A stretch of DNA of 64,000 nucleotides from Heterorhizobium halophytocola (GTDB lineage: Bacteria; Pseudomonadota; Alphaproteobacteria; Rhizobiales; Rhizobiaceae). Below the pieces are notes generated by a model. It saw nothing but the letters and a program-made list of their open reading frames with translations. It had not been told where the DNA came from and searched no databases. The position numbers and the translations under genes are program-made. Below, piece after piece: positions 54,450-58,557 of the stretch. Where the stretch lies: contig NZ_JAGGJU010000006.1 of the NCBI RefSeq assembly GCF_017873095.1, forward strand, positions 1-64,000, read 5' to 3'. Every line of letters begins with the position of its first letter. Within the stretch, counting starts at the first letter, position 1.

Positions 54450-55838
54450 ATGTCCGCATACGATTACGACCTCTTTGTCATTGGTGGCGGCTCCGGCGGC
54501 GTGCGCGCCGCGCGGGTGGCATCCAGTCTGGGCAAGCGGGTCGCGATCGCCGAGGAATATCGCTATGGCGGAACCTGCGTCATCCGTGGCTGCGTGCCGA
54601 AAAAGCTGTTCGTCTATGCCTCGCAGTTTGCCGAGCATTTCGAGGATGCCGAGGGCTTCGGCTGGACGGTCGGCGAGAGCAAGTTCGACTGGTCGGCGCT
54701 GATCGCGGCCAAGGACAAGGAAATCGACCGGCTCGAAGGGCTCTACCGCAAGGGGCTGGAGAATGCCGGCGCCGACATCCTGTCGACCCGTGCGGAGCTT
54801 ACCGGCCCCCACAGCGTGCGCCTGACCGATAGCGGCAGGGAAGTGACCGCCGAGCGGATCATCGTTGCCGTCGGCGGAACGCCCAATCCGCACGAGGCGC
54901 TGCCCGGCCACGAGCTCTGCATTTCCTCCAACGAGGCCTTCGACCTGGAGGCGCTGCCGCAGTCGATCCTGATTGCCGGGGGTGGCTATATCGCCGTCGA
55001 ATTCGCCAATATCTTCACCGGGCTTGGCGTCGACACAACGCTGATCTATCGCGGCGCGGAAATCCTCTCGCGCTTCGACATCGACATGCGCCGCGGCCTG
55101 CACGAGGCGATGGAGGCCAAGGGTATCCGCATCCTCTGCCACGACGTCATCGAGAAGGTCGAAAAGACCGCCGGGGGCATGCTGAGCGCGCGCACCAAGA
55201 ATAGCGGCACCCTGTCGGTTGGCCAGATCATGCTGGCGCTCGGCCGCGATCCGGCAACGCATGGTCTCGGGCTCGAGGCTGCCGGCGTCGAGGTCGATGC
55301 TAGGGGCGCGATCAAGGTCGATGAATATTCGCGCACCAATGTGCCGAGCATCTTCGCGCTTGGCGACGTCACCGACCGCGTGCAGCTGACGCCGGTCGCG
55401 ATCCATGAAGCCATGTGCTTCATCGAGACCGAGTACAAGAACAACCCGACCAAGCCGGATCATCACCTGATCGCGACGGCTGTGTTTTCGCAGCCGGAGA
55501 TCGGCACCGTGGGTCTCTCCGAAGACGACGCGGCCAAGCGTTTCGAGGAGATCGAAGTCTATCGCGCCCAGTTCCGCCCGATGAAGGCGACGCTGTCGGG
55601 GCGGCAGGAAAAGACGATCATGAAGCTGATCGTCAACGCCGCCGACCGCAAGGTGGTCGGCGCCCATATCCTCGGCCACGATGCCGGCGAGATGGCGCAA
55701 CTGCTCGGCATCACGCTGAAGGCCGGCTGCACCAAGGACGACTTCGACCGGACCATGGCCGTGCATCCGACGGCTTCGGAAGAACTGGTGACGATGTATG
55801 CCCCGAGCTACCGGATCCGGAACGGTGAGCGGGTCTGA
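54450..55838 (+). CDS. gor: Glutathione-disulfide reductase
   Basis: A 462-residue FAD-dependent cytoplasmic enzyme that keeps glutathione reduced with NADPH. FAD-binding is at DLFVIGGGSGGVRAARVA. The redox-active disulphide lies in GGTCVIRGCVPKKLFVY. The NADPH motif is ILIAGGGYIAVEFANIFTGLG, of which the Gly-rich part is diagnostic, and the partner-subunit His is in AVHPTASEELV. Start ATG at 54450 is preceded by CTGGAGCCCAGCC. The graspetide-like pair follows after about 105 bp. Confidence 0.95.
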   Translation: MSAYDYDLFVIGGGSGGVRAARVASSLGKRVAIAEEYRYGGTCVIRGCVPKKLFVYASQFAEHFEDAEGFGWTVGESKFDWSALIAAKDKEIDRLEGLYRKGLENAGADILSTRAELTGPHSVRLTDSGREVTAERIIVAVGGTPNPHEALPGHELCISSNEAFDLEALPQSILIAGGGYIAVEFANIFTGLGVDTTLIYRGAEILSRFDIDMRRGLHEAMEAKGIRILCHDVIEKVEKTAGGMLSARTKNSGTLSVGQIMLALGRDPATHGLGLEAAGVEVDARGAIKVDEYSRTNVPSIFALGDVTDRVQLTPVAIHEAMCFIETEYKNNPTKPDHHLIATAVFSQPEIGTVGLSEDDAAKRFEEIEVYRAQFRPMKATLSGRQEKTIMKLIVNAADRKVVGAHILGHDAGEMAQLLGITLKAGCTKDDFDRTMAVHPTASEELVTMYAPSYRIRNGERV

Positions 55839-55945: not shown

Positions 55946-56686
55946 ATGGCCAAAACAGTCAGAATTCTGAGTGTGCAATCGGTCGAGCTCAGCCTGGAGA
56001 AGAGCGATCCCGCACGTCTGGTCGTCATAGCCATGGGGATCGCCTCTACGCCGGGCTACACCAATGTCCGGCTCGATAGCCTGGAAGAGGAATTGTCGTC
56101 TGACGGCATTTTCGATCTGGAGTTTGTCGGAGATCCGCCTGATGGGATCGTGATCCCGAAACTGACGCCCGTTGCGGCGTCGATCGTTCTCGACAGGGAT
56201 GTGGACAGGATCGTCGGAGTGCTCGTGCACGCGCGTACGAACCAGCTGCTGCAGCTTCTGTCGCGCGACCCCCTGACCGAGAAGACGCTGGCACTCGGTG
56301 AAGAGATGCTGACGACGTTTGCGCTGGGTGAGGAAAATCCCACGACGCTCGCATTCGGGGAGGAGACGCCGTCGACCCGGGCCATCGGTGAGGAAGATCC
56401 GTCCACCCGTGCACTGGGCGAAGAGGATCCGACGACACTGGCGCTCGGTGAGGAGGGGGGCGGTTCCACCGCCGCAGTCGGCGAAGAATTTCCAAAGACC
56501 CTTGCCCTTGCCGAGGAGGGGCCAAAAACCCTCGCGCTCGCAGAAGAGGGGCCGAAGGGCATCGTCGGCGAAAGCGGTCCGGTTGCGCTCGAGAAGCTCC
56601 CGGGAATTGAGAACAAGACACTCGGAAGCGAGATATTCGATCCGCAGTCGCCTCTGGTCCTTCGCGGCCCGTTCGGAGTGCGCTGA
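55946..56686 (+). CDS. Graspetide (omega-ester peptide) precursor, plesiocin-like, with nine decapeptide repeats
   Basis: A 246-residue protein in three parts. Residues 1-108 form a leader that looks like a folded beta-rich domain. Residues 111-201 are nine near-identical repeats, ten residues each (one has eleven), of the form [TSK]T-x-A-x-x-EE. Residues 202-246 are a tail. Repeats 2, 3 and 6 carry TT, repeats 4, 5 and 7 carry ST, and repeats 1, 8 and 9 carry KT. In every repeat the spacing is hydroxyl-hydroxyl-x4-EE, which is the core motif TTxxxxEE of plesiocin, where an ATP-grasp enzyme makes two nested Thr-to-Glu ester bonds per repeat. The gene for such an enzyme follows after two bases. 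The ATG at 55946 follows GGGGAGG; a TTG at 55907 is in frame but lacks a site. No cysteines are present. Product and bioactivity are unknown. Confidence 0.8.
   Translation: MAKTVRILSVQSVELSLEKSDPARLVVIAMGIASTPGYTNVRLDSLEEELSSDGIFDLEFVGDPPDGIVIPKLTPVAASIVLDRDVDRIVGVLVHARTNQLLQLLSRDPLTEKTLALGEEMLTTFALGEENPTTLAFGEETPSTRAIGEEDPSTRALGEEDPTTLALGEEGGGSTAAVGEEFPKTLALAEEGPKTLALAEEGPKGIVGESGPVALEKLPGIENKTLGSEIFDPQSPLVLRGPFGVR
56276..56548 (+). repeat. Nine 30-bp coding repeats of the precursor core
   Basis: The core codes for TEKTLALGEE, MLTTFALGEE, NPTTLAFGEE, TPSTRAIGEE and related units in unbroken register; one unit (seventh) has an extra Gly. Synonymous differences between units are frequent, so the repeats are not newly amplified and have been kept similar at the protein level. 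Confidence 0.9.
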
Positions 56687-56688
56687 GG

Positions 56689-57624
56689 ATGGCTGCGCCT
56701 CGGGTGCTGATCGCCGGCGGCGCCCGGGACCCTTGCCTCGCGCGGCTGAAAGCCAGGGCCGACCGGCGCGGCATAAAAGCCCTGATGCTGCTGCACGACG
56801 ATCAGACCGAGTGTGCCGTGCGGATCGACGAACAGGGCATGCTCTTCGTCGATGATCGGGAGGCGGCGGTGGATGCCGCATTCGTCCGGTGCGACGTCTT
56901 CGGCTCCAGTCGCAGGGAAAGTCTCGCTGCGCTGCCGCGCGGCCAAAGCTGGTTTTCCTTCGCCGTCGGCTGGCTGGCCGGGCGACCGGACATCGTCATG
57001 TTGAACCGCGGCATGCAGATTTTCGCCGGCATGAAGGTCACGGATCTTTCGCTGGCGAGAGAATGCGGTCTTGCGACGCCCCGCAGTCTGGTCACCAACG
57101 AACGCGCGGCGATCGAGGCATTTTCTCAGGCGGTAGGTCCATGCGTTGCCAAACCGGTCAATGGTGGCGCCTATTGCAAGGAGCTCGACGAGGCGCTTCG
57201 CGACGCGCCTTCGCGGGATGGATGCCTGCCGCTCCCGGCATTCGTGCAGGAGCGGCTGATCTATCCGGAATACCGGCTCTACCGCATCGGTCGGTCCTAC
57301 ACCGTCTTCCGGGTCGAAAGCGAAACGCTGGACTACCGTATAGACAATCGTGCCGCGATGACGATCGTCGAGCCTGCGGGATCGCCCGTCGAACCGCTGT
57401 TGCCCGCCTGCGAGATGATGTGCGACCGGCTGGGGCTGGATTTCTGTGCCTTCGACCTGAAGACGCGCGCATCCGACGGCGCGCTCTGTTTTCTGGAGGT
57501 CAATACGGGGCCGATGTTTGCCGTCCACGATCACGTCAGCGATGGGCTGATCACCGACCTCATTCTGCATGAGCTGCTGCAGGGCGAATTCCAGGGAAGA
57601 GAGAGGCTGGCAAGGACCGGATGA
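56689..57624 (+). CDS. ATP-grasp ligase, graspetide macrocyclase-like
   Basis: A 311-residue RimK/MvdD-like ATP-grasp enzyme that would activate Glu side chains of the precursor with ATP and join them to Thr or Ser hydroxyls. An N-terminal domain (1-95) is followed by the ATP-grasp fold: PCVAKPVNGGAY supplies an ATP-binding Lys, FVQERLIYPEYRLYRIGRSY the hinge, and FDLKTRASDGALCFLEVNTG the metal-binding Asp, Glu and Asn, with GPMF following as in MvdC/MvdD/PsnB-type ligases. The ATG lies two bases after the precursor stop, so the two genes are translationally coupled. No transporter or peptidase gene is adjacent. RimK-type protein-tagging enzymes are the alternative, but the repeat precursor argues for graspetide synthesis. 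Confidence 0.82.
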   Translation: MAAPRVLIAGGARDPCLARLKARADRRGIKALMLLHDDQTECAVRIDEQGMLFVDDREAAVDAAFVRCDVFGSSRRESLAALPRGQSWFSFAVGWLAGRPDIVMLNRGMQIFAGMKVTDLSLARECGLATPRSLVTNERAAIEAFSQAVGPCVAKPVNGGAYCKELDEALRDAPSRDGCLPLPAFVQERLIYPEYRLYRIGRSYTVFRVESETLDYRIDNRAAMTIVEPAGSPVEPLLPACEMMCDRLGLDFCAFDLKTRASDGALCFLEVNTGPMFAVHDHVSDGLITDLILHELLQGEFQGRERLARTG

Positions 57625-57666: not shown

Positions 57667-58557
57667 TCACGAGCCCTTGAGAAGCCAGTCGGCGGCAGGT
57701 GCCCATAGCCGGTCGCGGTATTCCTTGCGGAAGAAGCCGAGATGGCCGATGGGGCCGCCGGCCTCCTGCGGTGTAAACCGGCGGCGTTCCAGCGGGGCGT
57801 TGCTGTAATATTTGAGGAGGGCCTCCTCGGCGCGCGGCGTGCCCCAGGGGTCGTCGGTGGCACCGATCGCCAGGATCGGGGTGCGAACCTCGGCAAAGCG
57901 CTGCTCCGCCCGGAGCGACGGATCGGCGAAGAAATATTCCTTGCGCCGCCCCCAGCGTGCCCATTGGCGAAAGACCGTGCCGGGCAGGGCTTCGCCGAGG
58001 CCGACCCAGCCCGGCAGCCGTCCGGTCACCATGGCGATCGGAACGCCGACGAGGTTCATCGTGGCGAAGATTTTCAGCGGCTGTTCCAGATTGGCCCAAT
58101 GGCCGGTCATGGCGGCGACCATCATATAGCGCTGGAAATGATCGTGGCGTTGCCCGAGCCCCAGGGCCTGGCCGCCGAAGGATTGGCTGACGCCAACCAC
58201 CGGGCGCTCCGGTGCCTCCTGTTCCAGCCGGGCGAGGGCGGCCGGGAAATCCTTCTCCGCCCAGTCGAGCATCATCACCGATTGCGTCCAGTCGCGCGGT
58301 GTGCGCGATGCCGCGACGCCGCGATAGTCATAGGTGAGGGCAGCCCGAAAGCTGCGTTCCGTCACCAGATATTCTGCGAAACGCCGATAGAAGCGCTGCG
58401 CCACCGCGGCTGCCGACGAGATCAGCGCAAGCGGTCCGTCGCCGGTGCCGGTAAACAGCGTGCCGGCCAGCGGATGATCATCGAGTGCCGCGAAGGTGAT
58501 CGGCCTCGTCAGGCACGCGCCGTCCGGCACAGACTGCGCCCTGTCCTCTGTCGCCAT
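57667..58557 (-). CDS. Alpha/beta hydrolase
   Basis: A 296-residue predicted hydrolase. The nucleophile elbow reads VVGVSQSFGGQAL, so the Ser is in Ser-Gln-Ser-Phe-Gly-Gly, and the acidic residue and His are likely in LAIGATDDPWG and GPIGHLGFFRKEY. It resembles uncharacterised serine aminopeptidase-like hydrolases (family S33 layout). It ends head to head with the ATP-grasp gene (42 bp between stops) and is on the opposite strand, so it is not in that operon; a role in releasing or processing the peptide is possible but only a guess. AGGAAAAGCAGCC precedes the ATG. Confidence 0.78.
   Translation of the reverse strand: MATEDRAQSVPDGACLTRPITFAALDDHPLAGTLFTGTGDGPLALISSAAAVAQRFYRRFAEYLVTERSFRAALTYDYRGVAASRTPRDWTQSVMMLDWAEKDFPAALARLEQEAPERPVVGVSQSFGGQALGLGQRHDHFQRYMMVAAMTGHWANLEQPLKIFATMNLVGVPIAMVTGRLPGWVGLGEALPGTVFRQWARWGRRKEYFFADPSLRAEQRFAEVRTPILAIGATDDPWGTPRAEEALLKYYSNAPLERRRFTPQEAGGPIGHLGFFRKEYRDRLWAPAADWLLKGS

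Follow-up and report, generated by a model that had tools for sequence, protein, structure and literature searches.

The window analyzed here, a stretch of 64,000 nucleotides from Heterorhizobium halophytocola, carries a two-gene operon on its forward strand. The first gene (55946-56686) is an open reading frame encoding a precursor protein of 246 aa, for which homologous precursors were found, and the second (56689-57624) encodes an ATP-grasp ligase of 311 aa, which profile, structural-match and tree evidence assigned to the graspetide-synthetase type. The first-pass annotation had placed the ligase two bases after the precursor, and indeed only GG lies between the precursor's TGA (ending at 56686) and the start of the ligase gene. 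The operon is flanked by gor (54450-55838) and by an alpha/beta hydrolase gene on the opposite strand (57667-58557), both named by eye. No protease or exporter gene was recognized by eye among the neighboring open reading frames, nor was an NHLM-type transporter recognized in this way among those of the 50-64 kb part of the window; a transporter of this kind is a common neighbor in graspetide group 2, according to the available text of PMC13097080. A promoter scan found none.

Counting by spacing pattern revealed nine units in the precursor, each composed of two donor positions, four intervening residues and two glutamates. The units start at residues 113, 123, 133, 143, 153, 163, 174, 184 and 194 and read KT-LALG-EE (56282-56305), TT-FALG-EE (56312-56335), TT-LAFG-EE (56342-56365), ST-RAIG-EE (56372-56395), ST-RALG-EE (56402-56425), TT-LALG-EE (56432-56455), ST-AAVG-EE (56465-56488), KT-LALA-EE (56495-56518) and KT-LALA-EE (56525-56548). 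The spacing across all nine is thus as first annotated, while its opening wording, which reads as if every donor pair were hydroxyl-hydroxyl, did not hold: this applies to six units (2-7), and the other three (1, 8 and 9) begin with Lys-Thr. A tenth copy, with the degenerate sequence PKGIVGES (residues 203-210; 56552-56575), was recognized by eye. When the 147-residue post-leader region was shuffled 20,000 times, the mean number of units was 0.09 and the maximum was 3. The precursor terminates in a PFGxR tail (56669-56683), a motif that lies at the C-terminal end, or at most two residues from it, in 9/9 of the precursors that share its leader type. Comparison with three close relatives showed strong purifying selection on the precursor, with dN/dS values of 0.04-0.10 for the leader and 0.03-0.06 for the rest. 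A search of the core repeats against the PDB gave a best E value of only 0.52.

The N-terminal part of the precursor is predicted to fold as a domain, and it has relatives that stand alone. A model of residues 1-109, built from an alignment of five sequences (pLDDT 82.5, pTM 0.75), and the relatives described below place a predicted seven-stranded all-beta leader domain at residues 1-105 (55946-56260). Searches with the leader returned no Foldseek match at E ≤1e-3 (0.001), no Pfam or NCBIfam family at E ≤1, a best E value of 1.9 for the leader profile against the PDB and nothing useful from viral sequences; its best VIA-align match had a Z score of 6.9 and 3.7 Å over 103 residues, a level that the tool's own grading calls common. 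Relatives of the leader that contain no units occur either alone (L007, L008 and L025) or joined to a second domain (L014 and L026-L028, the domains being split by eye), and weaker relatives were found among lipoprotein-like proteins about 160 residues long (21 examined, L029-L049). Among 390 genomes of the order, 62 held leader matches at E ≤1e-3; nine were below 1e-20, and five of these nine were fused precursors. The "Phhx(1,2)h" leader motif, which the available text of PMC8939145 describes as present in about 50% of graspetide precursors, is matched loosely by PVAASI, seen by eye inside a predicted strand. Two-domain stand-alone relatives of the leader were also noted at L014:3989-4639 and L054-L056, the former with annotated neighbors for a tyrosinase, cytochrome P460, an M4 metallopeptidase and emfourin. 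Many of the lipoprotein-like relatives (L031-L049) carry NPFNWFG-like motifs ahead of the domain, and the precursors have C-terminal NPFGxR-like motifs, which may be a coincidence.

The operon was at first regarded as the lone example of its architecture, a view that was dropped once related operons were found in other Rhizobiales and in Rhodobacterales, together with the pair in G1003. Of the ten bacterial precursor-ligase pairs examined, nine have the beta leader (the window included) and the tenth a Nif11-like leader. In Mesorhizobium sp. Z1-4, a syntenic operon of the same design follows gor (L011, a site identical to L002 of G069), and G069 belongs to the same family as the genome of the window, in agreement with its initial description as rhizobial. 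The metagenome-assembled genome SP168 (L010) has a related operon after gor, with a full-length ligase and a precursor (L010:5357-5983, + strand) that keeps the leader and one KTMAIGED unit, the rest being largely proline-rich. The KTMAIGED unit recurs in phage proteins. Six pairs are from Rhodobacterales (IMCC 34051, UBA996, G774, G826, G530 and G629). Beta-leader precursors contain from 1 to 15 unit windows, with 15 in three of the relatives; the UBA996 precursor includes a masked run.

Nif11-like leaders are a single leader family common to varied RiPP cores. The pair in G1003 (L065) combines such a leader (TIGR03798, E 0.0025; PF07862, E 0.0049; both under the curated cut-offs) with repeats that include TTLALGEE and with a related ligase (E 1.8e-57), whereas the leader of the window matches no Pfam or NCBIfam family. 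Because a Nif11-like leader stands in place of the beta leader in G1003, leader and core have recombined within one ligase clade. The G1003 ligase (L065:3801-4739, + strand) also has a tandem insertion of PNTLG repeats.

The operon is patchily distributed, which speaks against a core function. Among 200 relatives, ligase matches at E ≤1e-8 were limited to four, namely the window, G069 and the other-type ligases of G147 and G175. In the order, 2 of 397 matched (the window and G175), Z1-4 evidently being outside this sample, and in the class 6 of 385 matched, only the window and G1003 being members of the family. The gor gene was present in 38/40 genomes of the same genus. In none of 29 same-genus loci besides the window's own did the operon lie within the 1.5 kb that follow gor; by names assigned by eye, that position held the alpha/beta hydrolase gene in 19 loci, only aroG in 6 and neither in 4. 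A first scan of genome contigs with a single ligase gave nothing useful, and a search of the ligase against plasmids gave only one weak Streptomyces match.

Relatives of the ligase were also found in uncultured phages. Scans of IMG/VR with the ligase profile yielded 13 contigs, and the use of phage ligases as query yielded 30 loci; all nine of the phage ligases included in a tree fell in one clade with the bacterial ligases (support 100/99.9). In 10 of the 30 loci (L111, L112, L115, L166, L196, L202, L213, L214, L218 and L219), the ligase lies directly before a gene for a gp25-like protein. At least three units were present in 8 of these 10 proteins and one unit in the near-identical contigs L218 and L219. 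In L213 and L214, the reading frame adjoining the ligase opens with a unit, so that an N-terminal leader would be unnecessary there.

We examined the association of ligase and units in a separate gp25-like scan, using the best 80 of 86 loci. Among these, all six loci with a ligase had at least two units in the gp25-like protein, versus 0/40 of the ligase-less loci with at least 900 bases of upstream DNA and an intact N-terminus, of which 37 had no unit and 3 had one (Fisher p 1e-7, for contigs that are not independent). The remaining loci were without units and either were short of upstream DNA (16) or lacked the N-terminus (18). The single units in the ligase-less homologues were convincing in L160 and L161, probably one phage, and chance-like in L152; the phage-ligase search, which gave positives elsewhere, found no ligase in the whole record of L160 or L161. 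The gp25 of phage HMO-2011 and its homologues in five Roseobacter phages belong to the same protein family as the ligase-linked substrates but have no units (0/6 examined, from 27 records matched). In HMO-2011, the gp25 gene lies just after annotated tail-fibre genes, and we infer that gp25 is part of the phage particle. Two phage ligases searched against 50,697 phage records gave no match.

The other 20 of the 30 phage loci are away from a gp25-like gene, and no open reading frame with at least two units was found in the DNA examined there. A DNA polymerase gene sits beside the ligase in 14 of them, a count that leaves out the other six (L227, L228, L233-L235 and L237). Units in this polymerase-linked group were seen only on longer contigs and in a different gene, about 10 kb from the ligase, which encodes a lytic-transglycosylase protein (transglycosylase SLT domain, PF01464, E 5e-23). 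Proteins of this kind with units, such as MTRAIGEDG, STMAMGEDG, TTQAMGEDG and similar, were found at L124:3031-5064 (- strand), L238:3467-5116 (- strand), L241, L246 and L249. Fourteen transglycosylase loci were compared. The ligase and units occurred together in 3, these being all of the loci that hold both the ligase and the transglycosylase gene, and 6 others have units but stop short of the ligase site. Ligase and units are both absent from L250, in which the ligase site is covered, and from L251, whose contig ends at that site; L252 is a fragment without units; and the distant L253 and L254 also lack both. Contig G1296 has no ligase at the site and no units, and its polymerase is 96% identical (277 residues compared) and its small terminase 99%. 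It is a single case, yet the cleanest.

Since the ligase and the unit are present or absent together across unrelated substrates, the phage pairing supports the graspetide reading independently. Altogether, the operon is likely to use graspetide chemistry to make a large protein with multiple cross-links, through bonds that we infer from the units and the ligase. The ligase would bind the precursor and use ATP to phosphorylate an acidic side chain of a unit, which the Thr, Ser or Lys on the other side of the x4 turn would then attack. Two nested side-chain rings would form per unit, giving a hairpin as in plesiocin. The folded beta leader domain may act as a handle or anchor, a part in which another leader could replace it.

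The product probably stays large. Cutting the units apart after modification, to give small secreted hairpin peptides as ordinary RiPPs do, would follow general RiPP logic, and the protease and exporter could be encoded elsewhere in the genome; against this, neither was recognized by eye beside the window's operon, and the phage proteins that contain units are 333 to 1061 or more residues long, leaving such processing a conceivable but rather unlikely course. For a cross-linked protein that stays large, a role as a multivalent, protease-resistant inhibitor or surface protein can be proposed tentatively.

A broader proposal, to which we give about even chances, is that graspetide chemistry builds proteins: one ligase clade would staple a portable [T/S/K]T-x4-E[E/D] unit following a beta domain in the operons of rhizobia and Rhodobacterales, following a Nif11-like leader, and in gp25-like and lytic-transglycosylase proteins from the structural-gene regions of uncultured phages, whose particles would carry ester- or amide-stapled hairpins. 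If true, the phage pairing would put graspetide ligases to work on phage proteins in a way that is new relative to the literature found. A graspetide ligase acting on phage proteins is not described in the available portions of PMC8939145, PMC13097080, PMC13003496, PMC12291112, PMC5934393, PMC11278168 or PMC11118758; in the portions of PMC6256558 and PMC10580990 available, ATP-grasp is named only in the reference lists, and PMC9038755 gave no match. No prior description of the operon family was found in the literature searched, the PsnB structure paper and the classifications into 24 and 12 groups lying outside its coverage.

The unit of plesiocin is TT-x4-EE, a nested donor-donor-x4-acceptor-acceptor arrangement. 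Like plesiocin and its ligase PsnB (group 2), the operon of the window combines tandem nested units with a single ligase whose nearest solved relative is PsnB. Unlike plesiocin, which is tetravalent with two esters per unit in the text available from PMC12291112, the window has nine units, three of them Lys-Thr, and its leader is a predicted beta domain, the plesiocin leader being outside this comparison. Provided that the links form, the graspetide precursor would be very heavily cross-linked through its side chains, with nine units, or 15 windows in relatives, against four in plesiocin. Moreover, the occurrence of a folded-domain leader here and a Nif11-like leader in a related operon makes the problem of recognition by graspetide synthetases directly testable. 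The system also resembles corallotide and CorB (group 15) in its large precursor, in which several modified motifs are repeated, and in its Lys donor; however, corallotide, from Corallococcus, is described as having KxxxD single lactams with hydroxylated Lys, and KT-x4-EE units are not named there (PMC13097080). Finally, Carter et al. 2026 describe two graspetide groups, 34 and 35, that often have long precursors with repeated motifs, group 35 consisting of synthetases and precursors only, and on these descriptions, as far as the source was available, the rhizobial operon family might fall within groups 34/35 (PMC13097080).

To assess the Lys-Thr units, we tabulated 61 windows ending in E[ED] from seven precursors, leaving out the near-copies G530 and G629. 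The first donor position was K in 28, T in 23, S in 5 and another residue in 5, so that K, T or S accounted for 56/61; the second was T in 57, K in 3 and S in 1. In the same seven precursors, the acidic pair followed KT in 28/30 instances, TT in 22/22, ST in 5/5 and TS in 1/3, versus 2/52 for another residue followed by T and 0/14 for K without T or S next to it. Retention of the acidic pair behind KT points to Lys as a donor, because a lost donor would not predict such retention. The binomial value of 2e-32 overstates this case, since the units are copies of one another by duplication and hence not independent. Lys is an established donor in graspetides, and both esters and amides are formed by some synthetases, as stated in the available text of PMC13097080.

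The first-pass annotation had reckoned with at most fifteen esters, two in each of six units and one in each KT unit. The division into six two-hydroxyl units and three KT units stands, but KT units with a single ester as their only link are unlikely, given that 28/30 KT keep both acids. From the residue pattern, TT and ST units would each carry two esters, and KT units would probably carry one amide and one ester, for a maximum of 18 links (up to 15 esters and 3 amides) instead of 15. If so, a single enzyme would probably form mixed ester/amide hairpins. It is improbable that the product is a plain plesiocin-like graspetide, with the Lys of KT unused and a maximum of 15 esters from nine units. 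The TT-type spacing and the position of PsnB as best solved relative would fit such a product, as would the preference of some synthetases for one link type (available text of PMC13097080), but Lys makes up 28/33 of the non-hydroxyl residues at the first position, the acids are kept behind it, and in the G774 precursor all of the full units are KT (6/6).

The ligase is of the graspetide-synthetase type, with PsnB as its best solved relative by both sequence and structure. With a profile built from eight family members, a search of the PDB at E ≤0.01 matched seven distinct sequences, PsnB (6.5e-29), AMdnB, MdnB, PruB, CdnC, MdnC and, last, 3vpd (0.005), whose title differs between searches (ribosomal protein S6 modification protein or LysX); no chain titled RimK appeared at this threshold in the PDB profile searches with the ligase. 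Nine NCBIfam families matched at E ≤1, all below their own cut-offs: TIGR04187, the GRASP_SAV_5884 subfamily (2e-13; 50.1 bits versus 350), MvdC (4e-7), MvdD (3e-6), a RimK family (3e-5) and five weaker ones. Pfam gave only a sub-threshold glutathione-synthetase match. The predicted ligase model (pLDDT 81.9, pTM 0.80) had as structural neighbors four PsnB entries (Z 22.1-23.1), other graspetide synthetases (21.6-21.7) and RimK (20.6), which, being close behind PsnB, is a point against the graspetide reading. A RimK-type glutamate ligase was nonetheless rejected, with a TIGR00768 score of 23.4 bits versus a cut-off of 143.4. A grouping with RimK, which the first-pass annotation had named as a refutation of its reading, did not come about. 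That the enzyme adds amino acids to the acidic repeats, or otherwise modifies them without making rings, is very improbable: the ATP-grasp fold shared with RimK and the weak TIGR00768 match would allow it, but graspetide synthetases come first in the sequence profiles, and the strict register kept between the donors and the acidic pair would be needless for an enzyme that adds glutamate.

In trees, the bacterial ligases of the family formed one clade (support 100/99), without a supported sister among PsnB and the others, and PsnB was a long, unresolved branch. The designation of the operon as plesiocin-like holds for the unit spacing and the best relative, while the trees show no supported placement of the ligase beside PsnB. 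Alphaproteobacterial ligases of other graspetide-like types were seen at L003, L004 and L066-L069, and three of these ligases (L003, L004 and L067) are immediately preceded by a shorter gene of the same orientation.
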